Shown one piece after another: positions 9,807 through 64,000 of a stretch of DNA of 64,000 nucleotides; within the stretch, counting starts at the first letter, position 1, and each line of letters begins with the position of its first letter. The stretch lies in contig OX031065.1 in the NCBI GenBank assembly GCA_943736015.1, forward strand, positions 14,413,427-14,477,426, written 5' to 3'. Below the pieces are notes generated by a model that made no database searches, was not told the origin of the DNA, and saw only the letters and a program-made list of their open reading frames with translations. The position numbers and the translations under genes are program-made. The DNA is from Tridacna crocea (lineage: Eukaryota > Mollusca > Bivalvia > Cardiida > Cardiidae).

Positions 9807-10377
9807 ATCTGGCTTTGTAAGTGGCATTTTAAAACAGTCAAAAAACTAGATGTGTCATTATTCCTTAGACACAATATTTTCCACGAAAAAACGGTTCGTG
9901 CTGGATGTAAAAACAGTGACTAATGACATCATCATATCCAATGACTGTTCAATGCGTACACAAAAGTCAATAAACATGCTGCAAGTAAGAGGAAATAAGA
10001 TAATACTTATGTACTCATTAAACTGGCTATGATTTTTAAGTAATAGCCCAGTCCCTAAATAACTATTGTTGCGCCAGATGAGTGGCTGAACTACATGTAT
10101 ATTTTTATCCGCTTTTGAAAAGTACCTATGGAGGCAGCCATATTGTTTACGCAGCTTTAACATATTTCATAATTAGATCATTTCATACAGTTTTTATTTT
10201 TTTTGACCAATCAGGTAGAATGAGCGAAACATTGTGATGTGTGACGCTGTTTGATAAACTGGAAGACGCTCAATTTTTAGTCATCTCCTTCTAGATTTAG
10301 ACTAAAAAACTCAGAATGAGGTCTTATTTTATTTCTAAAAATCTAGAACTCTGTTACCACAAAACAAGCTTTGCTTG

Positions 10378-10833: not shown

Positions 10834-11115
10834 TAAGAGATATAACATAACATCAAACTTTTGCACAAAAATGAAGACGTCGGGGCTACAACAATACCAT
10901 GGAGTTTTCTTAGAAAACAGCTGAGCTAAAATGATCAAGAGTAATAAGCTAAAACCAGACAGTATCAGATGTACTTTATTCAGTTTGAAATGTCATGGAA
11001 ACAGAAATATATAATGACAAAATACTCTTCAATATAAAAGAACCCCATAAACATTGAACTCTTCTATTGGATACTTTACCCTTTGATCCACATTTTTTGT
11101 CAAGGAAGAAAGCAT

Positions 11116-11342
11116 TTAACCCATTACCACCCAATCCCTACTTTTGACGACCCTGAGAATGAAGCCTTTAGAAAACATTGTGGGAAAAGGAGAAAAAAAA
11201 TGCTGGTAACCAGCATTTTCTCCTTTTCCAACAATGTTTTCTATCCTTCACAAAACAAATTTCAAATTTTCAGTCACTTTTATTTTGTTGTCTGCAAATG
11301 CTTTCAATTTAGACAAACCTATTATTTTGTCGTTTGAGTTAA
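11116..11342 (-). mobile_element. P MITE (counterpart of 2299)
   Basis: TTAACCCATTACCACCCAAT ... TCGTTTGAG-TTAA; again without GGTAA at the right end. Confidence 0.85.
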
Positions 11343-11411
11343 AAGCATGGTGGGAAAGAAGAAAGTGCTGGTAACCAGCATTTCTTTTTTTTTAGCTATT
11401 TTTCCTCCATT

Positions 11412-11470
11412 TTAACCCTTTACCAAACAATTCCTGGTTTTTACGGCCCAAGGACAGATCTTTTAGTTTT
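11412..11470 (-). mobile_element. P MITE B-arm fragment (counterpart of 2597)
   Basis: TTAACCCTTTACCAAACAAT then TTTTTACGGCCC, with no stem. Confidence 0.6.
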
Positions 11471-11544
11471 AGTACTAGGTCAATAGAGCTTCAAATGCCT
11501 GTGCTTCACCAACAAAAAAAGAAATTAGATTTGTTTAAATTCAA

Positions 11545-11754
11545 ATCTTTATCAAATGACAAAACTGGACCAAAGTCAATGCATCTGCAGACAACAAAGG
11601 TAAAATGATGATTTCTGACTATAATAGGGTAGAAAATATTGTGGGAAAAAGGAGAAAATGCTGGTTACCAGCATTTTCTCCTTTTCCCACAATGTTTTCC
11701 ATAGGCTTCCTTCTCAGGGTTGTTAACAGTCGGGATTGTGTGCTTAAGAGTTAA
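11545..11754 (+). mobile_element. P MITE (counterpart of 2731)
   Basis: Worn left end TCTTTATCAAATGAC, intact stem, right end AAGAG-TTAA shared with the next copy. Confidence 0.8.
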
Positions 11755-11913
11755 AGGATTTGCAGATAACAAATTTAAATCAGGCTACAATAATAGGAAT
11801 TTTCCCTTAAAGGTTTGAAAACATTGTGGGGAGGAAAAGGAGAAAATGCTGGTTACCAGCATTTTCTCCTTACCCACAATGTTTTCAAATGCTCCTGCCC
11901 ACGGGATCATTAA
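11751..11913 (+). mobile_element. P MITE, 5'-truncated (counterpart of 2934)
   Basis: Starts inside the A-arm. Apex CTGGTTACCAG is intact here, whereas copy 1 has TGATGGTTACCAGCA. Confidence 0.75.
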
Positions 11914-12131
11914 CCCTTTACCACATTGAAAAATATTAGACCGATCCAAATTGAAATTTTTCCACATAACAATTTCAAATTGACTCGATTGAAAAGTTTT
12001 CTTTGACAGGGTAGAAAACTTTGTGGGAAAAGGAGAAAATGCTGGTTACCAGCATTTTCTTCTTCACAATGTTTTCAAAAGGCTTCTTCCTCAGGGTCAT
12101 CAAATGCCGTCATTGTATGGTAAAGGGTTAA
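11910..12131 (+). mobile_element. P MITE (counterpart of 3094)
   Basis: TTAACCCTTTACCACATTG ... GGTAAAGGG-TTAA; the right stem arm is shortened to CTTCTTCACAATG. Confidence 0.85.
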
Positions 12132-12499
12132 AATGGTGAACAGAAAACTTAAATCTATTACAAATGATATGAATTTGGGGCTCTTTCACAAAATCTTTCT
12201 GATTAAAACTGAATACCCTTAATCCCTTATGCATGAATGTGTCTGTAATGATGAATTAGTTCTAATACTAGAGTGTTAGGTGAACATAATACTGGTGTAT
12301 CTAAAAAAACAACATGAAAAACAAAGTGAATTAAACTATTACTCCTAAATGTTTGACATACTATTTCAAACAATGAAATGGCTTTCCTTTCAACTTCTCA
12401 TCTATCTATGTCATGTATATTCTTTGATTTTACAGTTCCTAAGGGGTTCAGTAAATAAAAGCTTTAAATTTCGCTGTAAGCTTGGCTTTGAACTTTTCA

Positions 12500-12728
12500 T
12501 TAACCTTTTCCCAAACGACAAAATTTTGGACTAGACCAAATTGAAAGCATTTGCAGACGACAATTCAACTCTTGCTGAAAAGATGATTTCCGTATATGAT
12601 AGAGTAGAAAACATTGTGGGAAAAGGAGAAAATGCTGGTTACCAGCATTTTCTCCTTTTCCCACAATGTTTTCAAAAGGCTTCCATTCTAGACCCACAAA
12701 AACCAGGGATTGTTTGGGAAAGGGTTAA
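12500..12728 (+). mobile_element. P MITE (counterpart of 3686)
   Basis: TTAACCTTTTCCCAAACGAC ... TTTGGGAAAGGG-TTAA. Apex CTGGTTACCAG here versus CTGGTAACCAG in copy 1; because the apex is palindromic, both remain self-complementary. Confidence 0.92.
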
Positions 12729-12780
12729 AAGACAAAATTTTAGAATTGTCCACACTGATAGCATGCAGGACTAACAAAGT

Positions 12781-13006
12781 AAACCGTTACCAAACAATCC
12801 TGACCTTTAATGACCTTCAGGAAGAATTCCCTTTTGCAAGCATTATGGGAAAGGAAAAAATGCTGGTTAACACCCTTTTCTCCTTCTCCCAAAACAATTT
12901 TCACCCTAGCTTGTTTAGAGAAACAATTTGCTTGCTGAGTGCAAATGCTTTCAATGTGACTTTAAAAATTGACCTTTAAAATTTTGCTGTATGTAAAGAG
13001 TTGAAT
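12781..13006 (-). mobile_element. P MITE, degraded (counterpart of 3967)
   Basis: CCGTTACCAAACAATCCTGA on the left, GCAAATGCTTTCAATGTG on the right. Confidence 0.72.
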
Positions 13007-13068
13007 ACAGCTCAAATTGTGCTACTTGTCTGAGAAGGGCTTTTCTTTTTTAATGTTCCAAAAAGATG

Positions 13069-13339
13069 GTTGGTTGGTTGTATTTGGGTTTTAACACCAC
13101 TTTAACAGCTAAGGTCATATCATGGCTGTCGGTGATGCACATGTGTTTCCTGGCTTTCTCATACCGGTACTAACACAACTTTCTTTCCAAAGCCACTGAC
13201 CACTTTTCTCGCATGCTTCAGCAGAGATGAGAGGCGAAAATATGCCGACAAGAAAGTTCATTTCAACCAGGTATCAAACTCACAACCACAACCACTAGGT
13301 CACGAGTCTGACACCCTCACCACTGAGCCACCCGGGCGG
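13069..13339 (-). mobile_element. SINE-1, second copy
   Basis: Same A-box/B-box head on the minus strand and (TTGG)n tail as 4254-4520; the B-box region carries an extra ACCACA. Confidence 0.78.
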
Positions 13340-13390
13340 TCTGACCCCATAAGAAGTCTCATCCACTGAGCCATAATTTTGTTTGAATGA

Positions 13391-13676
13391 TTTATGGTAT
13401 TCAACACATTTTTTTTACATTCTTTCAATCATACTTCAGTGACAAGTGCAACTATCCATGCTTTCATGGAGTTCCTTCAGCACTTTGCAAAATACTTTTC
13501 CCATGCCATTTATTGGTCCCACATAACCATCATCAAAATAATGATCGGCTATGAGAGAGAAATAAATCCTGTCACAATGACTATCAACAAACCCTGGAAA
13601 GAAATTGGCTGAGCTATGGATTCAAAACATACACTCATGGTCATAAGTCCTGTATGCTACCAACTGACCTACCAAC
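13391..13676 (-). mobile_element. SINE-2, second copy
   Basis: Counterpart of 4573-4857 with the same tRNA-like head at its right end. Confidence 0.7.
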
Positions 13677-13714
13677 TTCTACTAAGGCATATGGACAAGT
13701 CCGTCATTTTGCCA

Positions 13715-13943
13715 TTAACTCATTACCACACAACAAAATTTTAGACTTGTCCAAATTGAAAGCATTTGCAGATGACAAAATAAAGGTGACTGAAAAATTT
13801 AAATTTGCTCTGGGAAAGGTAGAAAACACTGTGGGAAAAGGAGAAAATGCTGGTTACCAGCATTTTCTCCTTTTCCTACAGTGTTTTCAAAAGGCTTCAT
13901 TCTCAGGGGCGTCAAAAGTAGGGATTGTATGGTAAAGGGTTAA
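13715..13943 (+). mobile_element. P MITE (counterpart of 4894)
   Basis: TTAACTCATTACCACACAAC ... GTATGGTAAAGGG-TTAA. Keeps the paired ACTG/CAGT stem change; the apex here is a perfect CTGGTTACCAG. Confidence 0.92.
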
Positions 13944-14312
13944 GTACAGACTTCAAAAAAGTTTGTCAAATACACAGTTTCAGGTTGACACAGAATTCTA
14001 CAGGTAACAAAGATCTCTCCTGGGGCAGATTACTCTTCTACAAGCCTTAGGTGACCTCAAAAATTCTATGTTCAGTTTGTAAATAACATGAGATGAACAG
14101 CAAATGGTTTTTAAAATAAAAATACAATCAATTTTCCTAACAGTTTTAGAAACTAAGGTTCTAATGATATCCTTCAGCCACATCATAAAGACTACCTGTA
14201 CTAAATATAGACTTGTCCATAATATGATTTATACATGGTTTTTCTTTGCTCAGGAGTCACAGCTAAACACCATTTGTTCCTATCATATATGAAAATTAAT
14301 GACCAGAAAGTC

Positions 14313-14537
14313 TTAACTCATTACCAAACGACAAAATTTTGGGTTTGTCCAAATCGAAGCATCTGCAGATGACAAAACAAAAAAGTGACTCAAAATTTGA
14401 AATTTGTTTTGTAAAGGTTAGAAAACATTGTGGGAAAAGGAGAAAATGCTGGTTATCAGCATATTCTCTTTTTCCCACAATGTTTTCCAAAGGCTACTTT
14501 CTCAGTAAAAAGTTGGGACTGTGTGTTAATGGTTTAA
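14313..14537 (+). mobile_element. P MITE (counterpart of 5503)
   Basis: TTAACTCATTACCAAACGAC; right TTAA shared with the next copy. Confidence 0.88.
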
Positions 14538-14745
14538 CCCTTTATCAAGTGACAAATTAGACTGGTACATAATGAAAACATTTGCAGACGACAAATGAAA
14601 TGTGGCTCAAATGATGGAAATTTGTCTTTGAAAGAAAAAAAGACATTGTGAGGCAGGGAGAAATGCTGGTTACCAGCATTTGCTGTTTCTCCAAAAACAT
14701 TTTCGAAAACCTTCTTCTAATACACATAATTCTTTGGTAAAGGCT
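14534..14745 (+). mobile_element. P MITE, degraded (counterpart of 5724)
   Basis: CCCTTTATCAAGTGACAAA ... TTTGGTAAAGGCTTA. Confidence 0.72.
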
Positions 14746-14779
14746 TATACAGGAAAACCTATGAATTTTTCATTTCATA

Positions 14780-14987
14780 TTAAACCTTTTATCAAACAAC
14801 CCCTGTTTTTACGACCCTGAGATAGGAGCCTTTTGAAAACATTGATAACCAGCATATTCTCCTTTTCCCACAATGTTTTCTATCCTGCTGGAAACAAACA
14901 TCAAACTTTTAGTTTCTTTTAATTTGTTGTCTGCAAGTGCCTTAAATTTGGACCAGTGTAAAATTTTGTCGTTTGGTAAAGAGTTAA
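14780..14987 (-). mobile_element. P MITE with deleted left stem (counterpart of 5973)
   Basis: TTAAACCTTTTATCAAACAA ... GTAAAGAG-TTAA; here the right TTAA survives, in copy 1 it is TTACC. Confidence 0.82.
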
Positions 14988-15713
14988 GTTGATCCACTGA
15001 AAATAGGACAGTGACTGCCACAATACAATTGCCACAATTTACTAAACTATGTGTTAAAATTCTCTATCAAAAACTACAAACTAAACAATAAAATATGTTT
15101 AAGATGATTGTTAAAACTCCTCTTACTACAAATAAATTGCTCCTATTGCAAACATAAATAAAACATGGACAGTGTAAAAATGGATACATGTATATAGAGA
15201 CTATGGATATTTTTTACTCTGTATTACGAGACCGAATAATAAAACGTAAAATATTGCTCAGATCATAATCCTTAAAAATACGAAATTATGACAAAATAAA
15301 ATATTCCCTTTTCCCTTATTTATATACGAGTGATAAAACCAAATACAACATAAAGTTTGATTTCAGATACTGATGTCTTAATATCAAGGACTAACTACAA
15401 GAAAATATAAATGTATATGATATAAAATAAACAACTAAAACAACAGCAGGCACAAAACAAAAAATGTTTGACAAAGCACCCACAGTTGTAGCACTTAGAC
15501 AAAAAAACAAAAATGGCACATAAGAAACATGATTATGTAGGATTAAAACAAGACAAAAAGTCCTTGAAAATTTTTTATAGTAAACGATGCAAACAGAAGC
15601 CATGAAAACATTTCGTTCAGACACAATCGAGTCCTTTACGGAAAATTGAAACAAAACCACTTTTCTTTGGCCTTCAGATTTAGACCAGACACAGGCATAC
15701 CAATATAAACCAG

Positions 15714-15937
15714 TTAACTCTTTACCAAACGTCAAAATTTTGGACAAGTCCAAATTGAAAATATTTGCAGACGACAAATGTGAACCAAAAACTGAAATTT
15801 GATTTGGAAAAGGTAGATAACATTGTGGGAAAAGGTGAAAATGCTGGTCACCAGCATTTTCTCCTTTTCCCATTATGTTTTCTAGTAAGTTCTTTCTCAG
15901 GGTCATTAAAAGTCGGGACGGTGTGGTAAAGGATTAT
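15714..15937 (+). mobile_element. P MITE (counterpart of 6912)
   Basis: TTAACTCTTTACCAAACGTC ... GTGTGGTAAAGGATTA. It lacks the AATAA of the A-arm after GACGACAAA. Confidence 0.85.
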
Positions 15938-15979
15938 GCCATTTGGGCCAGGAATCCTTCATAAAGCAAAAAAAAATCT

Positions 15980-16230
15980 CATTAAATCTCCACAAATAGA
16001 AAAATTCCAGATTTTTCGGAATTAAAAACATTTCAGACAGCAAAATAAATATGCCTTATAAAATTGATATTTGTCTCTAGAAAAGTAGAAAACATTGTGG
16101 AAAAAGGAGAAAATGCTGGTGGCCAGCAATGAGAAAATGCTGGTGGCCAGCATTTTCTCCATTTTCCACAATGTTTTTCAAAAAAACATTTGTTTTGCAG
16201 GGTATAATGAGGATTGTATTACATATGTTT
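15980..16230 (+). mobile_element. P MITE with duplicated apex
   Basis: Counterpart of 7180. A 20-nt stretch around the apex is repeated (GAGAAAATGCTGGTGGCCAG occurs twice, at about 16109 and 16131). A slip of replication at the hairpin tip would explain this. Confidence 0.75.
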
Positions 16231-16393
16231 AAAAAATAGTTACAGGTTAGATTATTAGGCAATAATACAGTCTTTCAAAGAATTTTTTCTAACATTTACC
16301 CAGGGAAATTCAAAATATTAGGAGCCAGAAATTTTTAGGTAGAAATGCTTTGGCCATTTGGAGTCCATCTGCCAAAACAAAGAGAATGCATGT

Positions 16394-48221: not shown

Positions 48222-48430
48222 TTAACCCCTTACTAAACAATCGGATAGAAACATTTTAAAAACATTGCAGGAAAAGCAGAAAATGTTGGTTACCAGCATT
48301 TTCTCCTTTTCCCACAATGTTTTCTACCCTGGTGGAAACAAATTTCAATTTTTGAGTTACTTTTATTTTGTCGTCTGCAAATGCTTTCAATTTGGACCAG
48401 TCTAACCTTTCATCGTTTGGTAAAGAATTA
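48222..48430 (-). mobile_element. P MITE at the left edge of the array (B-A' form)
   Basis: TTAACCCCTTACTAAACAAT (B-arm, shortened), stem CATTGCAGGAAAAGCAG, apex TTGGTTACCAG, right A-arm ending TCGTTTGGTAAAGAATTA. The array repeat begins within this element's stem. Confidence 0.88.
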
Positions 48431-48507
48431 GCTTATGGCATATGCAAATGCTTTCAATTTGGACCAGTCTAACATTTTATCCTTTGGTAAAGAATTAACT
48501 TATGGCA
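48375..48507. repeat. 66-67 bp tandem duplication of a P A-arm
   Basis: GCAAATGCTTTCAATTTGGA through AAAGAATTA and CTTATGGCAT occurs twice in direct order. The pair is present in every array unit (51790, 54983, 58674 and 61866 onward). Confidence 0.92.
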
Positions 48508-49140
48508 TACCTTTATAATGGTTGCGTGAACCGTAAATGCGTCTTATCGTTATGCAAACAGTGTTGACCAAATAAGACGCAACATTTCCAATTCAATTTT
48601 GTTTTCAGACGACCTCAGGATAAAATTGCGATAAAATACTTTTAAAAAAAGTCTCATATAAATGTCATTAATCACTATAGGTTGTAGCATATATATACTT
48701 TAAACCATTAACTTTTTACCAGCGACAGGGAAATTTTAGGCTAGACCATACATGTATTTCAAGCCAATCGTAAGTAAACTGAATACACAGTCGAGCCGCG
48801 TTTAACGCATCACTCTCCCTAAAGTTGAGGGTATTAGTACGCGCCATAAAGTAGCACTGGAAACAATGGCTTTTATCGATACGTTTGAGGAGAAATGAGG
48901 CCTGTTTTAGCTTCAGATTTCTCTAAACTGCTGATCATAGCTGAATGAATCGTACCAGGTAGCGTTTTATTGAGTAAACGTTAATTTTAGTTTGAAATTC
49001 TAAGTAACGGTTGTCGCGTAGAAAACTAGTCCGGTTCTGTACCAAGAATGCCGAAATAGAAGATAGATGTGTATGTGTAGAATGTCATCTACATGTATAG
49101 CGGGAGATAATGTTGGTATAATGGTTCGCGAAGATATGCC

Positions 49141-49369
49141 TTAACCCATTACCACTCAATCCCTACTTTTGACGCCCATGAGAAAGAAGCCTTTTGAAAA
49201 CACTGTGGGAAAAGGAGAAAATGCTGGTAACCAGCATTTTCTCCCTTTCCCACAGTGTTTTCTACCCTTCCCAGAACAAATTTCAATTTTTCAGTCACCT
49301 TTATTTTGTCGTCTGCAAATGCTTTGAATTTGGATCAGTCCAAAATTTTCTCGTGTGGTAATGAGTTAA
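49141..49369 (-). mobile_element. P MITE, variable insertion of array (filled in unit 1)
   Basis: GATATGCC-TTAACCCATTACC ... GTGTGGTAATGAG-TTAAGACCCC. Units 2 and 4 have GATATGCC-TTAA-GACCCC instead. Stem has the matched ACTG/CAGT change. Confidence 0.97.
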
Positions 49370-49424
49370 GACCCCAGTAGCCTGAGCATTGCTTAAATCT
49401 TTCCAAAGGTGCAATACTTTAAAT

Positions 49425-49602
49425 CAACCCTTTACCACAAAATCACGTATTTTTACGACTCTAAGAAAGAAGTCTTTTGAAAATATTGTGGGAACAGGAG
49501 AATATGCCTCCAATTTTTTTTAAAAAATTCAATTTCTTAGTGACATTTATTTGTCATCTGCAAATGCTTTGAATTTTGACAGGTCGTTTGGTGAAGAATA
49601 AG
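49425..49602 (-). mobile_element. P MITE, degraded, stem deleted
   Basis: CAACCCTTTACCACAAAATC on the left, AATATTGTGGGAACAGGAG, then directly into the A-arm (CATCTGCAAATGCTTTG). Also in units 2-5 at about 52613, 56030, 59496 and 62913. Confidence 0.78.
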
Positions 49603-49634
49603 TCCATGGTTTGTATAGGACTAACGTTACATGT

Positions 49635-49863
49635 TTAACCCATTACCACACAATGCCTACTTTTGATGACTCTGAGAAAGAAGCCTTTAGAAAACAATGT
49701 GGGAAAGGGAGAAAATGCTGGTAACCCGCATTTTCTCATTTTCCCACAATGTTTTCTACCCTTCACAAAGCTAATTTCAAATTTTCCGTCACTCTTATTT
49801 TGTCGTCTGCAAATGCTTTCGATTTGGACCAGTCCAAAATTTTGTTGTTTGGTAAAGAGTTAA
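49635..49863 (-). mobile_element. P MITE, fixed in all array units
   Basis: TTAACCCATTACCACACAAT ... TTTGGTAAAGAG-TTAA. Copies at 52823-53051, 56240-56468, 59706-59934 and 63123-63351. Confidence 0.93.
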
Positions 49864-49948
49864 TTGGAGTGTGTATGAGCATTTATATCACGTCAGAGTT
49901 ACAAGTTTAATTTTTCGATATATCTACATAGAACCGACTCTTATCGCC

Positions 49949-50170
49949 TTTACTCTTCGCAAAAGCAAAGTTCTAGGCTTGTCAAAAAAAAAGCATATGC
50001 AGACGACAAGGTAAATTTGACTAAAAAAATGATGTAAGGTTTTGGAATGGTAGAAAAGGAGCAAAAAGGAGAAAATGCTGGTGACCATCATTTTCTCCTC
50101 TACCCAAAATGTTTTAAAGTCTCTTTTAGGTGGTCATAAGGAGGTAGGTATTATTTGGTAAAAGGGCTAG
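49949..50170 (+). mobile_element. P MITE, degraded
   Basis: CCTTTACTCTTCGCAAAAGC, GCATATGCAGACGACAAGG; apex CTGGTGACCATC; ends TTTGGTAAAAGGGCTAG, followed by a poly-A run that differs in length between units. Confidence 0.75.
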
Positions 50171-50434
50171 AAAAAAAAAAACTTTGCCGATTGTTCTATA
50201 GACGTTTTAAGGTAACTCATTCTGTTTTTCTAAATAAGGAAGCTTTACAGAGAAAGAAATTGTAATTCTTCCATAGGATTCTATTTGACTATGATCGCTA
50301 TTCACTGGCTGGAGATATGTTAAATAATTAAAATGTGACATTCTTTTTACCTTGTATTGGATAACATAGTAGTATTCATAGAGTAATTACTATAAAACAA
50401 AAAAAGCCCTGCCTGTGGTATATATCGGATTTGC

Positions 50435-50643
50435 CAAACTCTTTCTCTGTGGACAATTTTATAGAATAATCCGGATTAAAAGCATTTGCATACTACAGAT
50501 TAAACATTGCTGAAATAACGGGACATGTTTTCAAAGCGGTAGAAAATATTCATGCAAATCAGCATTTTTCTTTCCTCATAATGTTTTAAAAACAGTCGTT
50601 AATTGAGTGGTAACATTACGGAACTATTCGATAAAGCGTTAAA
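50435..50643 (+). mobile_element. P MITE, heavily degraded
   Basis: CCAAACTCTTTCTCTGTGGAC, AAAAGCATTTGCATACTACA, GGTAGAAAATATTCATGC; ends GATAAAGCGTTAA. Confidence 0.6.
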
Positions 50644-50955
50644 AAGCTGTTATTTGGGTGATTTGCTATTGTTCTATGTCATTGAGTGTGACCTTGCATA
50701 CTTGTAAGTTGGAATAAGCTAAACCGACAGGTTAGTGACATTTAAAAACTTGCGCAATTTTCTATGATTTTTCATTTAACCAAATTTGTTTTCGCTCAGA
50801 AAAATGTTGTATTTCGCTTTTTTGTGTTCGTAAATTTTGTTTTGAATGAGCTTGTTTTTCTTTGGTCTACAGTCGAACACTTGATTCTCCTCATCAATAG
50901 GCAGACAACCATTCATTAACCATTGTAAACTGCATTCTTAACCTCAATAATTTTC

Positions 50956-51180
50956 AGCATTGCAAAATAACACAACTTCTGGTTGGCTAGAGCAAAGGTA
51001 GATTTGAAGGGGGTGGGGCGTCTCCATCAGGTTACCCTCCACAGGCGTTCGTGTTATGACGAACTCCGCTACCAATATAATGTTATAAATAAAATAGGTG
51101 GCGAAGTTCGTCATGACACAAACGCCTGTGGTACATTCGCCTTGGTTGTTCTTGGCCAATACTTTCAAGTTTTGCAGTAG
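50956..51180. repeat. Long hairpin in every array unit
   Basis: The 35-nt arm at 51039-51074 (CCACAGGCGTTCGTGTTATG...) pairs with 51098-51131 (...CATGACACAAACGCCTGTGG) across a 23-nt AT-rich loop. Flanks GCATTGCAAAA and TTTTGCAGT hint at a MITE, but target duplication is unclear. Copies start at about 54148, 57839 and 61031. It explains the mirrored 65- and 81-codon frames on the two strands. Confidence 0.88.
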
Positions 51181-51242
51181 GGACAGCAATGATTTTAGGC
51201 CCCTAACATTTCCCCAACGTGATTAACTGAGTCAAGACTGCT

Positions 51243-51472
51243 TAACCTATTACCACTCAATCCCTACTTTTTACGCCCCTGAGAAAAAAAGCCTTTTGAA
51301 AACACAGTGGGAAAAAGGAGAAAATGCTGGTAACCAGCATTTTCTCCTTTTCCCACAGTGTTTTCTACCCTTACCAGAACAAATTTCTATTTTTGAGTCA
51401 CCTTTATTTTGTCGTCTGCAAATGCTTTCCATTTGGACCAGACTAAAATTTTCTCGTGTGGCAAAGAGTTGA
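51243..51472 (-). mobile_element. P MITE, fixed in array units
   Basis: TTAACCTATTACCACTCAAT ... CTCGTGTGGCAAAGAG-TTGA. Copies at 54435-54664, 58126-58355 and 61318-61547. ACGCCCC (units 1, 3) versus ACACCCC (units 2, 4) inside its B-arm marks the dimer. Confidence 0.92.
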
Positions 51473-51565
51473 AATGAATGTACATGTATGAGCGCTCCCG
51501 AAAGGGACTTGAATGCCTTGATACAGCAAATCATAGCATAATCATGGATCCACAAAATTAATTGT

Positions 51566-51844
51566 AACTCATTACCAAACGACAAACTTTTAGGCTTGTC
51601 CAAATTGAAAGCATTTGCAGACGACAAAATAAATGTGACCGAAAATTTGAAATCTCTTTTATGAAGGGTAGAAAAAATTGTGGGAAAAGGAGAAAATGCT
51701 GCTTACCAGCATTTTCTCCTTTTCCCACAATGTTTTCTACCCTGGTGGAAACAAATTTCAATTTTTGAGTTACTTTTATTTTGTCGTCTGCAAATGCTTT
51801 CAATTTGGACCAGTCTAACCTTTCATCCTTTGGTAAAGAATTAA
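51566..51844. mobile_element. Chimeric A-A' P MITE at junction of units 1/2
   Basis: Left arm is A (CTCATTACCAAACGACAAAC), right arm is also A, inverted (TCGTCTGCAAATGCTTTC..TTTGGTAAAGAA-TTAA). From the apex rightward it is near-identical to the element at 48222-48430. Apex CTGCTTACCAG is imperfect, as expected for two fused halves. Confidence 0.95.
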
Positions 51845-54800
51845 CTTATGGCATATGCAAATGCTTTCAATTTGGACCAGTCTAACATTTTATCCTTTGG
51901 TAAAGAATTAACTTATGGCATACCTTTATAATGGTTGCGTGAACCGTAAATGCGTCTTATCGTTATGCAAACAGTGTTGACCAAATAAGACGCAACATTT
52001 CCAATTCAATTTTGTTTTCAGACGACCTCAGGATAAAATTGCGATAAAATACTTTTAAAAAAAGTCTCATATAAATGTCATTAATCACTATAGGTTGTAG
52101 CATATATATACTTTAAACCATTAACTTTTTACCAGCGACAGGGAAATTTTAGGCTAGACCATACATGTATTTCAAGCCAATCGTAAGTAAACTGAATACA
52201 CAGTCGAGCCGCGTTTAACGCATCACTCTCCCTAAAGTTGAGGGTATTAGTACGCGCCATAAAGTAGCACTGGAAACAATGGCTTTTATCGATACGTTTG
52301 AGGAGAAATGAGGCCTGTTTTAGCTTCAGATTTCTCTAAACTGCTGATCATAGCTGAATGAATCGTACCAGGTAGCGTTTTATTGAGTAAACGTTAATTT
52401 TAGTTTGAAATTCTAAGTAACGGTTGTCGCGTAGAAAACTAGTCCGGTTCTGTACCAAGAATGCCGAAATAGAAGATAGATGTGTATGTGTAGAATGTCA
52501 TCTACATGTATAGCGGGAGATAATGTTGGTATAATGGTTCGCGAAGATATGCCTTAAGACCCCAGTAGCCTGAGCATTGCTTAAATCTTTCCAAAGGTGC
52601 AATACTTTAAATCAACCCTTTACCACAAAATCACGTATTTTTACGACTCTAAGAAAGAAGTCTTTTGAAAATATTGTGGGAACAGGAGAATATGCCTCCA
52701 ATTTTTTTTAAAAAATTCAATTTCTTAGTGACATTTATTTGTCATCTGCAAATGCTTTGAATTTTGACAGGTCGTTTGGTGAAGAATAAGTCCATGGTTT
52801 GTATAGGACTAACGTTACATGTTTAACCCATTACCACACAATGCCTACTTTTGATGACTCTGAGAAAGAAGCCTTTAGAAAACAATGTGGGAAAGGGAGA
52901 AAATGCTGGTAACCCGCATTTTCTCATTTTCCCACAATGTTTTCTACCCTTCACAAAGCTAATTTCAAATTTTCCGTCACTCTTATTTTGTCGTCTGCAA
53001 ATGCTTTCGATTTGGACCAGTCCAAAATTTTGTTGTTTGGTAAAGAGTTAATTGGAGTGTGTATGAGCATTTATATCACGTCAGAGTTACAAGTTTAATT
53101 TTTCGATATATCTACATAGAACCGACTCTTATCGCCTTTACTCTTCGCAAAAGCAAAGTTCTAGGCTTGTCAAAAAAAAAGCATATGCAGACGACAAGGT
53201 AAATTTGACTAAAAAAATGATGTAAGGTTTTGGAATGGTAGAAAAGGAGCAAAAAGGAGAAAATGCTGGTGACCATCATTTTCTCCTCTACCCAAAATGT
53301 TTTAAAGTCTCTTTTAGGTGGTCATAAGGAGGTAGGTATTATTTGGTAAAAGGGCTAGAAAAAAAAAAAAAAACTTTGCCGATTGTTCTATAGACGTTTT
53401 AAGGTAACTCATTCTGTTTTTCTAAATAAGGAAGCTTTACAGAGAAAGAAATTGTAATTCTTCCATAGGATTCTATTTGACTATGATCGCTATTCACTGG
53501 CTGGAGATATGTTAAATAATTAAAATGTGACATTCTTTTTACCTTGTATTGGATAACATAGTAGTATTCATAGAGTAATTACTATAAAACAAAAAAAGCC
53601 CTGCCTGTGGTATATATCGGATTTGCCAAACTCTTTCTCTGTGGACAATTTTATAGAATAATCCGGATTAAAAGCATTTGCATACTACAGATTAAACATT
53701 GCTGAAATAACGGGACATGTTTTCAAAGCGGTAGAAAATATTCATGCAAATCAGCATTTTTCTTTCCTCATAATGTTTTAAAAACAGTCGTTAATTGAGT
53801 GGTAACATTACGGAACTATTCGATAAAGCGTTAAAAAGCTGTTATTTGGGTGATTTGCTATTGTTCTATGTCATTGAGTGTGACCTTGCATACTTGTAAG
53901 TTGGAATAAGCTAAACCGACAGGTTAGTGACATTTAAAAACTTGCGCAATTTTCTATGATTTTTCATTTAACCAAATTTGTTTTCGCTCAGAAAAATGTT
54001 GTATTTCGCTTTTTTGTGTTCGTAAATTTTGTTTTGAATGAGCTTGTTTTTCTTTGGTCTACAGTCGAACACTTGATTCTCCTCATCAATAGGCAGACAA
54101 CCATTCATTAACCATTGTAAACTGCATTCTTAACCTCAATAATTTTCAGCATTGCAAAATAACACAACTTCTGGTTGGCTAGAGCAAAGGTAGATTTGAA
54201 GGGGGTGGGGCGTCTCCATCAGGTTACCCTCCACAGGCGTTCGTGTTATGACGAACTCCGCTACCAATATAATGTTATAAATAAAATAGGTGGCGAAGTT
54301 CGTCATGACACAAACGCCTGTGGTACATTCGCCTTGGTTGTTCTTGGCCAATACTTTCAAGTTTTGCAGTAGGGACAGCAATGATTGTAGGCCCCTAACA
54401 TTTCCCCAACGTGATTAACTGAGTCAAGACTGCTTAACCTATTACCACTCAATCCCTACTTTTTACACCCCTGAGAAAAAAAGCCTTTTGAAAACACAGT
54501 GGGAAAAAGGAGAAAATGCTGGTAACCAGCATTTTCTCCTTTTCCCACAGTGTTTTCTACCCTTACCAGAACAAATTTCTATTTTTGAGTCACCTTTATT
54601 TTGTCGTCTGCAAATGCTTTCCATTTGGACCAGACTAAAATTTTCTCGTGTGGCAAAGAGTTGAAATGAATGTACATGTATGAGCGCTCCCGAAAGGGAC
54701 TTGAATGCCTTGATACAGCAAATCATAGCATAATCATGGATCCACAAAATTAATTGTAACTCATTACCAAACGACAAACTTTTAGGCTTGTCCAAATTGA

Positions 54801-54897
54801 AAGCATTTGCAGACGACAAAATAAATGTGACCGAAAATTTGAAATCTCTTTTATGAAGGGTAGAAAAAATTGTGGGAAAAGGAGAAAATGCTGCTTA
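51706..54897. repeat. Array unit 2 (type B, 3192 bp)
   Basis: Lacks the variable P insertion: single TTAA at 52554-52557. Carries ACACCCC (near 54469) and GATTGTAGG (near 54385), the type B marks. Confidence 0.97.
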
Positions 54898-55036
54898 CCA
54901 GCATTTTCTCCTTTTCCCACAATGTTTTCTACCCTGGTGGAAACAAATTTCAATTTTTGAGTTACTTTTATTTTGTCGTCTGCAAATGCTTTCAATTTGG
55001 ACCAGTCTAACCTTTCATCCTTTGGTAAAGAATTAA
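54758..55036. mobile_element. Chimeric A-A' P MITE at junction of units 2/3
   Basis: Same structure as 51566-51844, including the CTGCTTACCAG apex. Confidence 0.95.
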
Positions 55037-55745
55037 CTTATGGCATATGCAAATGCTTTCAATTTGGACCAGTCTAACATTTTATCCTTTGGTAAAGAAT
55101 TAACTTATGGCATACCTTTATAATGGTTGCGTGAACCGTAAATGCGTCTTATCGTTATGCAAACAGTGTTGACCAAATAAGACGCAACATTTCCAATTCA
55201 ATTTTGTTTTCAGACGACCTCAGGATAAAATTGCGATAAAATACTTTTAAAAAAAGTCTCATATAAATGTCATTAATCACTATAGGTTGTAGCATATATA
55301 TACTTTAAACCATTAACTTTTTACCAGCGACAGGGAAATTTTAGGCTAGACCATACATGTATTTCAAGCCAATCGTAAGTAAACTGAATACACAGTCGAG
55401 CCGCGTTTAACGCATCACTCTCCCTAAAGTTGAGGGTATTAGTACGCGCCATAAAGTAGCACTGGAAACAATGGCTTTTATCGATACGTTTGAGGAGAAA
55501 TGAGGCCTGTTTTAGCTTCAGATTTCTCTAAACTGCTGATCATAGCTGAATGAATCGTACCAGGTAGCGTTTTATTGAGTAAACGTTAATTTTAGTTTGA
55601 AATTCTAAGTAACGGTTGTCGCGTAGAAAACTAGTCCGGTTCTGTACCAAGAATGCCGAAATAGAAGATAGATGTGTATGTGTAGAATGTCATCTACATG
55701 TATAGCGGGAGATAATGTTGGTATAATGGTTCGCGAAGATATGCC

Positions 55746-55974
55746 TTAACCCATTACCACTCAATCCCTACTTTTGACGCCCCTGAGAAAGAAGCCTTTT
55801 GAAAACACTGTGGGAAAAGGAGAAAATGCTGGTAACCAGCATTTTCTCCCTTTCCCACAGTGTTTTCTACCCTTCCCAGAACAAATTTCAATTTTTCAGT
55901 CACCTTTATTTTGTCGTCTGCAAATGCTTTGAATTTGGATCAGTCCAAAATTTTCTCGTGTGGTAATGAGTTAA
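55746..55974 (-). mobile_element. P MITE, variable insertion (filled in unit 3)
   Basis: Identical placement to 49141; GCCCCTGAG here versus GCCCATGAG in unit 1. Confidence 0.97.
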
Positions 55975-57478
55975 GACCCCAGTAGCCTGAGCATTGCTTA
56001 AATCTTTCCAAAGGTGCAATACTTTAAATCAACCCTTTACCACAAAATCACGTATTTTTACGACTCTAAGAAAGAAGTCTTTTGAAAATATTGTGGGAAC
56101 AGGAGAATATGCCTCCAATTTTTTTTAAAAAATTCAATTTCTTAGTGACATTTATTTGTCATCTGCAAATGCTTTGAATTTTGACAGGTCGTTTGGTGAA
56201 GAATAAGTCCATGGTTTGTATAGGACTAACGTTACATGTTTAACCCATTACCACACAATGCCTACTTTTGATGACTCTGAGAAAGAAGCCTTTAGAAAAC
56301 AATGTGGGAAAGGGAGAAAATGCTGGTAACCCGCATTTTCTCATTTTCCCACAATGTTTTCTACCCTTCACAAAGCTAATTTCAAATTTTCCGTCACTCT
56401 TATTTTGTCGTCTGCAAATGCTTTCGATTTGGACCAGTCCAAAATTTTGTTGTTTGGTAAAGAGTTAATTGGAGTGTGTATGAGCATTTATATCACGTCA
56501 GAGTTACAAGTTTAATTTTTCGATATATCTACATAGAACCGACTCTTATCGCCTTTACTCTTCGCAAAAGCAAAGTTCTAGGCTTGTCAAAAAAAAAGCA
56601 TATGCAGACGACAAGGTAAATTTGACTAAAAAAATGATGTAAGGTTTTGGAATGGTAGAAAAGGAGCAAAAAGGAGAAAATGCTGGTGACCATCATTTTC
56701 TCCTCTACCCAAAATGTTTTAAAGTCTCTTTTAGGTGGTCATAAGGAGGTAGGTATTATTTGGTAAAAGGGCTAGAAAAAAAAAAAAAACTTTGCCGATT
56801 GTTCTATAGACGTTTTAAGGTAACTCATTCTGTTTTTCTAAATAAGGAAGCTTTACAGAGAAAGAAATTGTAATTCTTCCATAGGATTCTATTTGACTAT
56901 GATCGCTATTCACTGGCTGGAGATATGTTAAATAATTAAAATGTGACATTCTTTTTACCTTGTATTGGATAACATAGTAGTATTCATAGAGTAATTACTA
57001 TAAAACAAAAAAAGCCCTGCCTGTGGTATATATCGGATTTGCCAAACTCTTTCTCTGTGGACAATTTTATAGAATAATCCGGATTAAAAGCATTTGCATA
57101 CTACAGATTAAACATTGCTGAAATAACGGGACATGTTTTCAAAGCGGTAGAAAATATTCATGCAAATCAGCATTTTTCTTTCCTCATAATGTTTTAAAAA
57201 CAGTCGTTAATTGAGTGGTAACATTACGGAACTATTCGATAAAGCGTTAAAAAGCTGTTATTTGGGTGATTTGCTATTGTTCTATGTCATTGAGTGTGAC
57301 CTTGCATACTTGTAAGTTGGAATAAGCTAAACCGACAGGTTAGTGACATTTAAAAACTTGCGCAATTTTCTATGATTTTTCATTTAACCAAATTTGTTTT
57401 CGCTCAGAAAAATGTTGTATTTCGCTTTTTTGTGTTCGTAAATTTTGTTTTGAATGAGTTTGTTTTTCTTTGGTCTAC

Positions 57479-57753
57479 TCGCTCCCTCCACTGAACATTG
57501 TTTTGTTGTAGCATGTGGCATCATATTACTTGAAATCGTATAAGGACTCGATCATAACGCCATGTGAATCGTTTCATGAGGAAATATCTATCTACCTGCC
57601 TACACTACCCGCCGCCCGCCCAAACGTATGTATGTGCGTACGTACGTACACATGTATGTATGTATGATGTGGTAGCAAGAGAGCATCCCTCTCCCTCCTC
57701 CTACTAAAAGGACGAGTATATCTTGTCAAACAACAAAACATGCGCCTCAACAA
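57479..57753. other. 275-bp insertion private to unit 3
   Basis: Sits between GGTCTAC and AGTCGAACAC, contiguous in the other units. Contains a pyrimidine-rich start (TCGCTCCCTCC), a GTAC/GTAT microsatellite at 57625-57666 and a GCCGCCCGCCC patch. No terminal repeats or target duplication that I can see. Confidence 0.9.
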
Positions 57754-58448
57754 AGTCGAACACTTGATTCTCCTCATCAATAGGCAGACAACCATTCATT
57801 AACCATTGTAAACTGCATTCTTAGCCTCAATAATTTTCAGCATTGCAAAATAACACAACTTCTGGTTGGCTAGAGCAAAGGTAGATTTGAAGGGGGTGGG
57901 GCGTCTCCATCAGGTTACCCTCCACAGGCGTTCGTGTTATGACGAACTCCGCTACCAATATAATGTTATAAATAAAATAGGTGGCGAAGTTCGTCATGAC
58001 ACAAACGCCTGTGGTACATTCGCCTTGGTTGTTCTTGGCCAATACTTTCAAGTTTTGCAGTAGGGACAGCAATGATTTTAGGCCCCTAACATTTCCCCAA
58101 CGTGATTAACTGAGTCAAGACTGCTTAACCTATTACCACTCAATTCCTACTTTTTACGCCCCTGAGAAAAAAAGCCTTTTGAAAACACAGTGGGAAAAAG
58201 GAGAAAATGCTGGTAACCAGCATTTTCTCCTTTTCCCACAGTGTTTTCTACCCTTACCAGAACAAATTTCTATTTTTGAGTCACCTTTATTTTGTCGTCT
58301 GCAAATGCTTTCCATTTGGACCAGACTAAAATTTTCTCGTGTGGCAAAGAGTTGAAATGAATGTACATGTATGAGCGCTCCCGAAAGGGACTTGAATGCC
58401 TTGATACAGCAAATCATAGCATAATCATGGATCCACAAAATTAATTGT

Positions 58449-58727
58449 AACTCATTACCAAACGACAAACTTTTAGGCTTGTCCAAATTGAAAGCATTTG
58501 CAGACGACAAAATAAATGTGACCGAAAATTTGAAATCTCTTTTATGAAGGGTAGAAAAAATTGTGGGAAAAGGAGAAAATGCTGCTTACCAGCATTTTCT
58601 CCTTTTCCCACAATGTTTTCTACCCTGGTGGAAACAAATTTCAATTTTTGAGTTACTTTTATTTTGTCGTCTGCAAATGCTTTCAATTTGGACCAGTCTA
58701 ACCTTTCATCGTTTGGTAAAGAATTAA
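58449..58727. mobile_element. Chimeric A-A' P MITE at junction of units 3/4
   Basis: As 51566-51844, but TCATCGTTTGG rather than TCATCCTTTGG near the right end. Confidence 0.95.
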
Positions 58728-61700
58728 CTTATGGCATATGCAAATGCTTTCAATTTGGACCAGTCTAACATTTTATCCTTTGGTAAAGAATTAACTTATG
58801 GCATACCTTTATAATGGTTGCGTGAACCGTAAATGCGTCTTATCGTTATGCAAACAGTGTTGACCAAATAAGACGCAACATTTCCAATTCAATTTTGTTT
58901 TCAGACGACCTCAGGATAAAATTGCGATAAAATACTTTTAAAAAAAGTCTCATATAAATGTCATTAATCACTATAGGTTGTAGCATATATATACTTTAAA
59001 CCATTAACTTTTTACCAGCGACAGGGAAATTTTAGGCTAGACCATACATGTATTTCAAGCCAATCGTAAGTAAACTGAATACACAGTCGAGCCGCGTTTA
59101 ACGCATCACTCTCCCTAAAGTTGAGGGTATTAGTACGCGCCATAAAGTAGCACTGGAAACAATGGCTTTTATCGATACGTTTGAGGAGAAATGAGGCCTG
59201 TTTTAGCTTCAGATTTCTCTAAACTGCTGATCATAGCTGAATGAATCGTACCAGGTAGCGTTTTATTGAGTAAACGTTAATTTTAGTTTGAAATTCTAAG
59301 TAACGGTTGTCGCGTAGAAAACTAGTCCGGTTCTGTACCAAGAATGCCGAAATAGAAGATAGATGTGTATGTGTAGAATGTCATCTACATGTATAGCGGG
59401 AGATAATGTTGGTATAATGGTTCGCGAAGATATGCCTTAAGACCCCAGTAGCCTGAGCATTGCTTAAATCTTTCCAAAGGTGCAATACTTTAAATCAACC
59501 CTTTACCACAAAATCACGTATTTTTACGACTCTAAGAAAGAAGTCTTTTGAAAATATTGTGGGAACAGGAGAATATGCCTCCAATTTTTTTTAAAAAATT
59601 CAATTTCTTAGTGACATTTATTTGTCATCTGCAAATGCTTTGAATTTTGACAGGTCGTTTGGTGAAGAATAAGTCCATGGTTTGTATAGGACTAACGTTA
59701 CATGTTTAACCCATTACCACACAATGCCTACTTTTGATGACTCTGAGAAAGAAGCCTTTAGAAAACAATGTGGGAAAGGGAGAAAATGCTGGTAACCCGC
59801 ATTTTCTCATTTTCCCACAATGTTTTCTACCCTTCACAAAGCTAATTTCAAATTTTCCGTCACTCTTATTTTGTCGTCTGCAAATGCTTTCGATTTGGAC
59901 CAGTCCAAAATTTTGTTGTTTGGTAAAGAGTTAATTGGAGTGTGTATGAGCATTTATATCACGTCAGAGTTACAAGTTTAATTTTTCGATATATCTACAT
60001 AGAACCGACTCTTATCGCCTTTACTCTTCGCAAAAGCAAAGTTCTAGGCTTGTCAAAAAAAAAGCATATGCAGACGACAAGGTAAATTTGACTAAAAAAA
60101 TGATGTAAGGTTTTGGAATGGTAGAAAAGGAGCAAAAAGGAGAAAATGCTGGTGACCATCATTTTCTCCTCTACCCAAAATGTTTTAAAGTCTCTTTTAG
60201 GTGGTCATAAGGAGGTAGGTATTATTTGGTAAAAGGGCTAGAAAAAAAAAAAAAAACTTTGCCGATTGTTCTATAGACGTTTTAAGGTAACTCATTCTGT
60301 TTTTCTAAATAAGGAAGCTTTACAGAGAAAGAAATTGTAATTCTTCCATAGGATTCTATTTGACTATGATCGCTATTCACTGGCTGGAGATATGTTAAAT
60401 AATTAAAATGTGACATTCTTTTTACCTTGTATTGGATAACATAGTAGTATTCATAGAGTAATTACTATAAAACAAAAAAAGCCCTGCCTGTGGTATATAT
60501 CGGATTTGCCAAACTCTTTCTCTGTGGACAATTTTATAGAATAATCCGGATTAAAAGCATTTGCATACTACAGATTAAACATTGCTGAAATAACGGGACA
60601 TGTTTTCAAAGCGGTAGAAAATATTCATGCAAATCAGCATTTTTCTTTCCTCATAATGTTTTAAAAACAGTCGTTAATTGAGTGGTAACATTACGGAACT
60701 ATTCGATAAAGCGTTAAAAAGCTGTTATTTGGGTGATTTGCTATTGTTCTATGTCATTGAGTGTGACCTTGCATACTTGTAAGTTGGAATAAGCTAAACC
60801 GACAGGTTAGTGACATTTAAAAACTTGCGCAATTTTCTATGATTTTTCATTTAACCAAATTTGTTTTCGCTCAGAAAAATGTTGTATTTCGCTTTTTTGT
60901 GTTCGTAAATTTTGTTTTGAATGAGCTTGTTTTTCTTTGGTCTACAGTCGAACACTTGATTCTCCTCATCAATAGGCAGACAACCATTCATTAACCATTG
61001 TAAACTGCATTCTTAACCTCAATAATTTTCAGCATTGCAAAATAACACAACTTCTGGTTGGCTAGAGCAAAGGTAGATTTGAAGGGGGTGGGGCGTCTCC
61101 ATCAGGTTACCCTCCACAGGCGTTCGTGTTATGACGAACTCCGCTACCAATATAATGTTATAAATAAAATAGGTGGCGAAGTTCGTCATGACACAAACGC
61201 CTGTGGTACATTCGCCTTGGTTGTTCTTGGCCAATACTTTCAAGTTTTGCAGTAGGGACAGCAATGATTGTAGGCCCCTAACATTTCCCCAACGTGATTA
61301 ACTGAGTCAAGACTGCTTAACCTATTACCACTCAATCCCTACTTTTTACACCCCTGAGAAAAAAAGCCTTTTGAAAACACAGTGGGAAAAAGGAGAAAAT
61401 GCTGGTAACCAGCATTTTCTCCTTTTCCCACAGTGTTTTCTACCCTTACCAGAACAAATTTCTATTTTTGAGTCACCTTTATTTTGTCGTCTGCAAATGC
61501 TTTCCATTTGGACCAGACTAAAATTTTCTCGTGTGGCAAAGAGTTGAAATGAATGTACATGTATGAGCGCTCCCGAAAGGGACTTGAATGCCTTGATACA
61601 GCAAATCATAGCATAATCATGGATCCACAAAATTAATTGTAACTCATTACCAAACGACAAACTTTTAGGCTTGTCCAAATTGAAAGCATTTGCAGACGAC

Positions 61701-61780
61701 AAAATAAATGTGACCGAAAATTTGAAATCTCTTTTATGAAGGGTAGAAAAAATTGTGGGAAAAGGAGAAAATGCTGCTTA
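58589..61780. repeat. Array unit 4 (type B, 3192 bp)
   Basis: Empty TTAA at 59437-59440, ACACCCC, GATTGTAGG: same marks as unit 2. Confidence 0.97.
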
Positions 61781-61919
61781 CCAGCATTTTCTCCTTTTCC
61801 CACAATGTTTTCTACCCTGGTGGAAACAAATTTCAATTTTTGAGTTACTTTTATTTTGTCGTCTGCAAATGCTTTCAATTTGGACCAGTCTAACCTTTCA
61901 TCGTTTGGTAAAGAATTAA
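61641..61919. mobile_element. Chimeric A-A' P MITE at junction of units 4/5
   Basis: As the other junction copies; TCATCGTTTGG version. Confidence 0.95.
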
Positions 61920-64000
61920 CTTATGGCATATGCAAATGCTTTCAATTTGGACCAGTCTAACATTTTATCCTTTGGTAAAGAATTAACTTATGGCATACCT
62001 TTATAATGGTTGCGTGAACCGTAAATGCGTCTTATCGTTATGCAAACAGTGTTGACCAAATAAGACGCAACATTTCCAATTCAATTTTGTTTTCAGACGA
62101 CCTCAGGATAAAATTGCGATAAAATACTTTTAAAAAAAGTCTCATATAAATGTCATTAATCACTATAGGTTGTAGCATATATATACTTTAAACCATTAAC
62201 TTTTTACCAGCGACAGGGAAATTTTAGGCTAGACCATACATGTATTTCAAGCCAATCGTAAGTAAACTGAATACACAGTCGAGCCGCGTTTAACGCATCA
62301 CTCTCCCTAAAGTTGAGGGTATTAGTACGCGCCATAAAGTAGCACTGGAAACAATGGCTTTTATCGATACGTTTGAGGAGAAATGAGGCCTGTTTTAGCT
62401 TCAGATTTCTCTAAACTGCTGATCATAGCTGAATGAATCGTACCAGGTAGCGTTTTATTGAGTAAACGTTAATTTTAGTTTGAAATTCTAAGTAACGGTT
62501 GTCGCGTAGAAAACTAGTCCGGTTCTGTACCAAGAATGCCGAAATAGAAGATAGATGTGTATGTGTAGAATGTCATCTACATGTATAGCGGGAGATAATG
62601 TTGGTATAATGGTTCGCGAAGATATGCCTTAACCCATTACCACTCAATCCCTACTTTTGACGCCCCTGAGAAAGAAGCCTTTTGAAAACACTGTGGGAAA
62701 AGGAGAAAATGCTGGTAACCAGCATTTTCTCCCTTTCCCACAGTGTTTTCTACCCTTCCCAGAACAAATTTCAATTTTTCAGTCACCTTTATTTTGTCGT
62801 CTGCAAATGCTTTGAATTTGGATCAGTCCAAAATTTTCTCGTGTGGTAATGAGTTAAGACCCCAGTAGCCTGAGCATTGCTTAAATCTTTCCAAAGGTGC
62901 AATACTTTAAATCAACCCTTTACCACAAAATCACGTATTTTTACGACTCTAAGAAAGAAGTCTTTTGAAAATATTGTGGGAACAGGAGAATATGCCTCCA
63001 ATTTTTTTTAAAAAATTCAATTTCTTAGTGACATTTATTTGTCATCTGCAAATGCTTTGAATTTTGACAGGTCGTTTGGTGAAGAATAAGTCCATGGTTT
63101 GTATAGGACTAACGTTACATGTTTAACCCATTACCACACAATGCCTACTTTTGATGACTCTGAGAAAGAAGCCTTTAGAAAACAATGTGGGAAAGGGAGA
63201 AAATGCTGGTAACCCGCATTTTCTCATTTTCCCACAATGTTTTCTACCCTTCACAAAGCTAATTTCAAATTTTCCGTCACTCTTATTTTGTCGTCTGCAA
63301 ATGCTTTCGATTTGGACCAGTCCAAAATTTTGTTGTTTGGTAAAGAGTTAATTGGAGTGTGTATGAGCATTTATATCACGTCAGAGTTACAAGTTTAATT
63401 TTTCGATATATCTACATAGAACCGACTCTTATCGCCTTTACTCTTCGCAAAAGCAAAGTTCTAGGCTTGTCAAAAAAAAAGCATATGCAGACGACAAGGT
63501 AAATTTGACTAAAAAAATGATGTAAGGTTTTGGAATGGTAGAAAAGGAGCAAAAAGGAGAAAATGCTGGTGACCATCATTTTCTCCTCTACCCAAAATGT
63601 TTTAAAGTCTCTTTTAGGTGGTCATAAGGAGGTAGGTATTATTTGGTAAAAGGGCTAGAAAAAAAAAAAAAACTTTGCCGATTGTTCTATAGACGTTTTA
63701 AGGTAACTCATTCTGTTTTTCTAAATAAGGAAGCTTTACAGAGAAAGAAATTGTAATTCTTCCATAGGATTCTATTTGACTATGATCGCTATTCACTGGC
63801 TGGAGATATGTTAAATAATTAAAATGTGACATTCTTTTTACCTTGTATTGGATAACATAGTAGTATTCATAGAGTAATTACTATAAAACAAAAAAAGCCC
63901 TGCCTGTGGTATATATCGGATTTGCCAAACTCTTTCTCTGTGGACAATTTTATAGAATAATCCGGATTAAAAGCATTTGCATACTACAGATTAAACATTG
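61781..64000. repeat. Array unit 5 (type A, cut by window end)
   Basis: Has the variable P insertion at 62629-62857, so type A. The array continues past the window. Confidence 0.95.
62629..62857 (-). mobile_element. P MITE, variable insertion (filled in unit 5)
   Basis: GATATGCC-TTAACCCATTACC ... GGTAATGAG-TTAAGACCCC. Confidence 0.97.

Follow-up and report, generated by a model that had tools for sequence, protein, structure and literature searches.

The locus considered in the present work raises the question of how a segment of about 3.2 kb, rich in MITEs, came to be repeated head to tail in the genome of Tridacna crocea, and of whether the resulting array should be regarded as a satellite or as the outcome of a local rearrangement. 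The window, that is, the whole stretch of DNA that was analysed (64,000 bp), corresponds to C10:14413427-14477426 in a genome of 1.05 Gb in 31 contigs. In the same assembly, COX1 is found on a contig of 29 kb and is readable with mitochondrial code 5 (invertebrate).

Extent of the Array and Its Place in the Genome

According to the self-alignment of the assembly, on which both the array itself and its copy number are based, the array occupies C10:14461685-14485588 (23,904 bp), at 14.4 Mb of a 58.6-Mb contig, and is composed of seven head-to-tail units whose lengths are, in order, 3413, 3192, 3691, 3192, 3691, 3191, and 3534 bp, the last one with a 68-bp tail. In the window, unit 1 is located at 48259..51671, unit 2 at 51672..54863, unit 3 at 54864..58554, unit 4 at 58555..61746, and unit 5 at 61747..64000, where the window end cuts it, all of them on the plus strand; the array extends beyond the window with the rest of unit 5 and with units 6 and 7, up to C10:14485588. 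A previous reading of the window made without any search (the sequence-only reading) had recognized at least five units, of 3413, 3192, 3691, and 3192 bp plus a fifth one truncated by the window end, starting from position 48293. The alignment of the units confirmed the four lengths and the truncated fifth unit. The array is indeed present at position 48293; however, its left edge lies 34 bases earlier, at 48259, and, while five units do fall in the window, beyond it the fifth is completed (3691 bp) and followed by two more, for a total of seven.

Furthermore, the genome was searched using 3 kb of the unit as a query. No second place harboring the array was found in the 1.05 Gb among the best 40 of the 29,150 first-look candidates, which were those scored; besides the array, the matches listed were pieces of up to about 500 bases, mostly dispersed repeats. 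Since further whole-unit copies should rank first in such a search, this looks like a single local array.

Differences among the Units and the Dimeric Period

The seven units, aligned from the left edge of the array, differ at few sites. Substitutions at columns 3219 and 3299 separate odd from even units across all seven, column 157 has a C in units 2 and 3 against a G in the remaining units, and the poly-A length sets the two edge units apart from the five inner ones. The largest differences are an insertion, P (225 bp net), and a 275-bp segment. The former is present in unit 1 (49141..49369), unit 3 (55746..55974), and unit 5 (62629..62857), in each case on the plus strand, and is absent from unit 7. 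P is a MITE flanked by TTAA: it matches positions 1-227 of the family model described below, the filled site has one TTAA at each end, and the empty site in unit 2 has a single TTAA. The 275-bp segment (57479..57753, plus strand, in unit 3) is found in units 3, 5, and 7, where two substitutions accompany it, and not in units 1, 2, 4, and 6; unit 1 thus harbors P without the segment, and unit 3 harbors both.

The scoring of all 8 first-look candidates did not retrieve any full copy of the 275-bp segment outside its three places in the array, the matches elsewhere in the genome being of about 40-47 bases only. Its interpretation as a mobile element is, therefore, unsupported, and an insertion and a loss from the other units are equally likely.

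The sequence-only reading had proposed a strict A-B alternation of the units and, from this, a dimer of about 6.6 kb amplified with a satellite-like higher-order organization. Within the window, the alternation holds for P and for the two named substitutions; that of P fails at the seventh unit, because unit 7 lacks P although it carries the 275-bp segment. Parity fits nine out of the ten listed sites, and 144 of the 5,040 unit orders fit equally well; hence, the order of the units by parity alone represents modest evidence for a dimer. Stronger evidence comes from the identity of the dimers themselves. Over 6,883 bp, 2 substitutions distinguish units 2+3 from units 4+5, one per unit pair and both at column 157, and unit 6 is the same as unit 4 except for one poly-A base. 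Inner units of equal parity are 0 or 1 substitution apart, and within units 2 to 5 those of differing parity are separated by 5 or 6 substitutions and three indels. Shifting the start of the dimer frame back by 801 bases, into unit 1, leaves four differing sites between the first two dimers. The repeating dimer is, therefore, of 6,883 bp and spans units 2-6, the value of 6,605 bp applying to the first pair only; a dimeric period is supported, and the two edge units, which carry private substitutions and unique edges, depart from it as differing mixtures. The TCATCG/TCATCC site, reported as not following the alternation, does read G,C,C,G,G in units 1-5 and then G,G in units 6 and 7, and gene conversion is a possible source of this pattern.

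Satellite higher-order repeats have a period of several monomers, with dimers more alike than the monomers, and form large arrays. In our case, a multi-monomer repeat more alike than its neighbouring monomers is present, whereas a large array, with many copies or several places, is not: there are just seven units, in 23.9 kb and at one place, and no other copy of the unit was found in the genome search. The term "satellite-like" does not, in our opinion, apply to an array of 24 kb of this kind.

The MITE Family

The MITEs were mapped by nhmmer with a family profile of 227 positions with TTAA ends. The family accounts for 38.5% of the window as a whole and for 39.7% of the array, compared with 37.2% of the part of the window lying to the left of the array and 25.3% of the 26 kb on its right. 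The unit had been described as full of MITEs, which is correct, but the left flank is nearly as rich. Each element consists of a near-perfect palindrome of about 65-70 bp between two different arms. Among the 66 end-to-end copies outside the array, 44 have TTAA at both ends and 22 do not; the terminal inverted repeats are short, the consensus ends being CCCTTTACCA and, inverted, CTCTTTACCA.

The TTAA target duplication and the short terminal inverted repeats are features of piggyBac-type MITEs. As for the terminal motif of the latter, given as CC[C/T]T in PMC2872659, the left consensus end (CCCT) fits it and the right one (CTCT) does not, and the ends of P (CCCA and CTCA) show it at neither side. 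Probing the genome with PF13843 (piggyBac-type transposase) retrieved 118 matches, many of them without internal stops; clearly matching MITE ends were present at neither of the two loci fetched out of these 118. Pieces of piggyBac-type transposase also form two clusters, at C13:4481437-4612957 (about 131 kb) and C8:56710862-56757774 (about 47 kb), in which many pieces have stops. Moreover, the TTAA family is extremely abundant: strict patterns comprising the core and both arms gave 20,628 normal copies genome-wide, 10,324 and 10,304 on the two strands, respectively.

Edges and Junctions of the Array

Both edges of the array fall inside MITEs of this family having both arms. The left edge (48259) is contained in the left parental MITE (L-MITE; 48223..48430, plus strand, 208 bp, nhmmer match to model positions 1-227), and the right edge in a MITE on the minus strand at C10:14485414-14485640. 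A 67-bp tandem duplication of the right end of the L-MITE (window 48376-48509) is shared by all five units reaching into the window and, thus, probably predates the array.

All six internal junctions have the same structure, that is, a right arm (-), the palindromic core, and a right arm (+). The four chimeras located in the window, mapped by nhmmer, are those between units 1/2 (51565..51843, with the model pair 53-227 on the minus and 48-227 on the plus strand), 2/3 (54757..55035), 3/4 (58448..58726), and 4/5 (61640..61918). According to their sequence, the first arm derives from the right-hand MITE and the second one from the left-hand MITE. Six of the first 31 bases of unit 1 are private to it, and units 2-7 carry the bases of the right parent at those positions; since the two parents are identical for 37 bp from position 32 onwards (48290..48326, plus strand), the founding switch falls within those 37 bp.

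The right parent also contains the longest perfect palindrome (25-bp arms and a 5-bp spacer, in a scan allowing spacers of 0-8 bp) of the 15.6-kb stretch taken without the array. The predicted hairpin of the junction core of units 1/2 has an energy of -33.6 kcal/mol versus -6.2 (sd 2.2) for shuffled sequences (z -12.6), scoring better than 200 out of 200 of them. In the same 15.6-kb stretch, nine other direct pairs share at least 35 identical bp, and five of them at least 37; this, in turn, implies that the pair used is not special for the length of the shared sequence.

Proposed Founding Event and Growth to Seven Units

As in NAHR, homologous repeats are found at both edges (2/2) and a chimeric repeat at each internal junction (6/6). 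NAHR also involves direct repeats; in this respect the locus departs from it, the two MITEs being inverted and only their palindromic cores matching directly. Inverted copies of a repeat ordinarily recombine into an inversion, and this is what an ordinary alignment of these two elements would yield; a direct alignment is nonetheless open to them because the core reads nearly alike on both strands. Judging from the sequence, the origin of the array appears to resemble NAHR acting on a direct core, rather than the textbook arrangement.

On the whole, we consider it probable that the array is a young local tandem duplication that arose by exchange between two inverted MITEs of one TTAA-flanked family. 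The starting point would have been two such elements, in opposite orientation and about 3.2 kb apart, whose palindromic cores aligned in direct orientation; a crossover (or a template switch) within the shared 37 bp would have fused the right arms of the two elements, that of the right-hand MITE with that of the left-hand one, thereby duplicating the intervening 3.2 kb or so. The founding event was presumably a recombination rather than a template switch, the palindrome may have caused the initial break, and the array seems to be young.

That the same junction recurs six times suggests a single founding event. Later on, out-of-register exchange between whole units (unequal crossing-over) would have brought the array to seven units, and in one round of it two slightly different units would have been copied together, giving rise to the 6,883-bp dimer. 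Divergence is highest in the two edge units, and inner units of the same parity hardly differ, as expected from unequal crossing-over. We can depict a simple, albeit conjectural, order of steps: a first duplication; divergence; the appearance, between the edge units, of a copy without P and without the 275-bp segment; and the duplication of a pair. Units 3 and 5, which combine P, shared with unit 1, and the 275-bp segment, shared with unit 7, would require one more event, either a gene conversion or a precise excision of P from unit 7; the need for this extra event to account for P in the edge units counts against the explanation that we favor, as does the fact that a template switch during replication, or the re-integration of a circle, would serve equally well as the first step.

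Other Features of the Window

A further point against it is the existence, in the same window, of a second tandem duplication that has no MITE at its left edge, at its junction, or at its right edge and that lends, therefore, no support to a MITE mechanism. It is of about 8.6 kb (window -1097..7458 and 7452..16282), begins upstream of the window, and is more divergent than the array, with 95-97% identity between the copies; its junction is characterized by few shared bases (CAAAGAA/CACAGAA).

The coding potential was checked by scanning 10 of the 54 open frames of the window, three of them from the repeat unit, against Pfam. None of the three frames of the unit gave a Pfam match; matches were obtained in two of the 10 frames, all below the curated cut-off. 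One frame (window about 21749-22126, minus strand) matched PDZ (E 0.05) and one weaker family, below cut-off, and is possibly an exon of a host gene. Broken reverse-transcriptase-like frames adjoin the array on its left (window 46470-47866), with a weak RVT_1 match in one out of four (47076-47408, E 5e-4). The comparison of the window with Rfam gave no match at or above a family's gathering score.

Same-Arm Chimeras in the Rest of the Genome

The strict patterns used to count the normal copies also retrieved same-arm chimeras genome-wide, 140 of the right-right and 46 of the left-left type, and the reversed control patterns had no match in the genome. If both kinds are equally common, these chimeras would correspond to about 0.4% of the copies, a ratio that is rough because the three strict patterns differ in length. 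A base change keeps the junctions of the array itself out of the strict right-right set, and in one or more of the left-left matches the middle does not resemble the family core.

Fifteen of the 140 right-right loci were fetched, namely, the first 15 in contig order and, thus, a non-random sample. By inspection, five of them (L024, L026, L029, L031, and L035) have short inverted pieces within one MITE: near position 1500, a short inverted piece of its own core and right arm is present, as though the polymerase had turned back and then resumed its course. The two arms were compared at eight right-right loci (L034 and L037 were omitted as incomplete or ambiguous) and turned out to be 76-84% identical, much as when arms of different loci are paired (n = 268, mean 79%, sd 4). 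Such a divergence speaks against a recent copying of one arm, with old events being indistinguishable by this comparison, and would fit either an exchange between different copies or old age. Direct self-matches longer than 260 bp are present in five of the 15 right-right 3-kb loci (68-75% identical) versus one of eight normal ones (66%), and they are probably neighbouring MITEs. Lastly, three of the 15 loci were compared with the whole genome, scoring the best 40 of 13,095-22,449 candidates per search, and no tandem copy was found for any of them; as the candidates scored were mostly other dispersed repeats, this is a weak test, and it speaks against a general mechanism of duplication.

Starting from these data, we tentatively suggest that the palindromic core might make the family a recombination substrate that is blind to orientation, so that any two copies, direct or inverted, could give duplications, deletions, or inversions, and the same-arm chimeras would be the countable scars of such events.

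Alternative Explanations

The same anatomy might have originated during replication, if the hairpin of one MITE core arrested the polymerase and synthesis resumed on the other core, which would give the same junction in one step; this possibility differs from an exchange between the two MITEs only in the making of the first copy. In agreement with it, the core forms a strong hairpin, hairpins are described in PMC7999016 as able to stall replication and lead to template switching, and palindromes as able to stall it and to break, and the short inverted pieces seen inside one MITE at five of the 15 right-right loci inspected are of the kind that it would leave. The junction of the array, however, joins the complete arms of two different MITEs and has no short inverted pieces, and the dimer pattern would still need unequal exchange; we regard a replicative origin as a possible but rather unlikely alternative. 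An excision of a circle through recombination at the cores, followed by rolling-circle replication, perhaps with a dimer as the circle, and by re-integration at the same place, would produce the same junction too, and the near-identical dimers would suit a dimer circle. This scenario involves more steps, though, and edge units unlike the inner ones match better a stepwise exchange, which makes it very unlikely.

It might also be argued that the array is a product of the assembly and that one or two real copies were multiplied in it, given that no more than 0 or 1 substitution separates inner units of the same parity. Yet the units combine the two large indels in different ways, and units 1 and 7 have their own substitutions and edges, so that we assign to an artefact a similarly small probability. 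As to a genuine satellite with dimeric higher-order organization, the dimer is real, with 2 substitutions between units 2+3 and 4+5, but an array of only seven units with no other place found in the genome, embedded in flanks where the same MITE is abundant on both sides (37.2% and 25.3%), renders this the most improbable of the explanations considered. The exchange between two inverted MITEs remains, in our opinion, the one that best accounts for the locus.

Comparison with Known Systems and Significance

Tandem duplication by TE-mediated NAHR is a known process, and exchange between mobile elements is indicated as a source of arrays in a review (PMC12628747). Like the cases outlined there, the present array has a segment bounded by two copies of one element, chimeric junctions, and growth attributable to unequal exchange; unlike them, the elements are inverted, only their symmetric core aligns directly, and the chimeras consist of two right arms. 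The piggyBac-related CMITEs of Acropora, for which replication slippage has been proposed (PMC2872659), likewise are MITEs flanked by TTAA, with a piggyBac-like target and a tie to tandem arrays. According to that paper, in Acropora it is the MITE itself that is repeated, with or without gaps, whereas here the repeat consists of the 3.2 kb that separate two MITEs, and its junction reveals which sequence was exchanged. For the Xstir arrays of Xenopus, it has been proposed that two MITEs close to each other form a stem-loop as the DNA is replicated (Hikosaka and Kawahara, as reported in PMC12628747). That model shares with our case two close MITEs and a stem-loop as the source of a tandem repeat; the Xstir repeats, however, are described as stemming from internal MITE sequence, and the array analysed here from the DNA between two MITEs. 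Palindromic mobile elements are found in Anopheles gambiae as well, where six of 32 MITE-like clusters are reported as palindromic (PMC3212995); these are palindromic throughout, and the MITE of T. crocea is palindromic in the middle only, with two different outer arms.

Hence, MITEs in tandem arrays (PMC2872659), as well as exchange between mobile elements and a stem-loop model with two MITEs (PMC12628747), are already known. Among the titles and abstract beginnings listed from the open literature for the terms tried, none describes inverted MITEs recombining via a palindrome in their interior, and within this scope we did not come across a direct duplication originated in this way.

The founding junction is still present at this locus, which makes it possible to trace, at the level of single bases, how dispersed mobile elements turned into a small array. 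Should same-arm chimeras prove to be general traces of exchange through the core, the rearrangements caused by one MITE family would become countable in a genome; in that case, the counts of chimeras could be used to assess whether internal palindromes raise the recombination of MITEs above that of other repeats.
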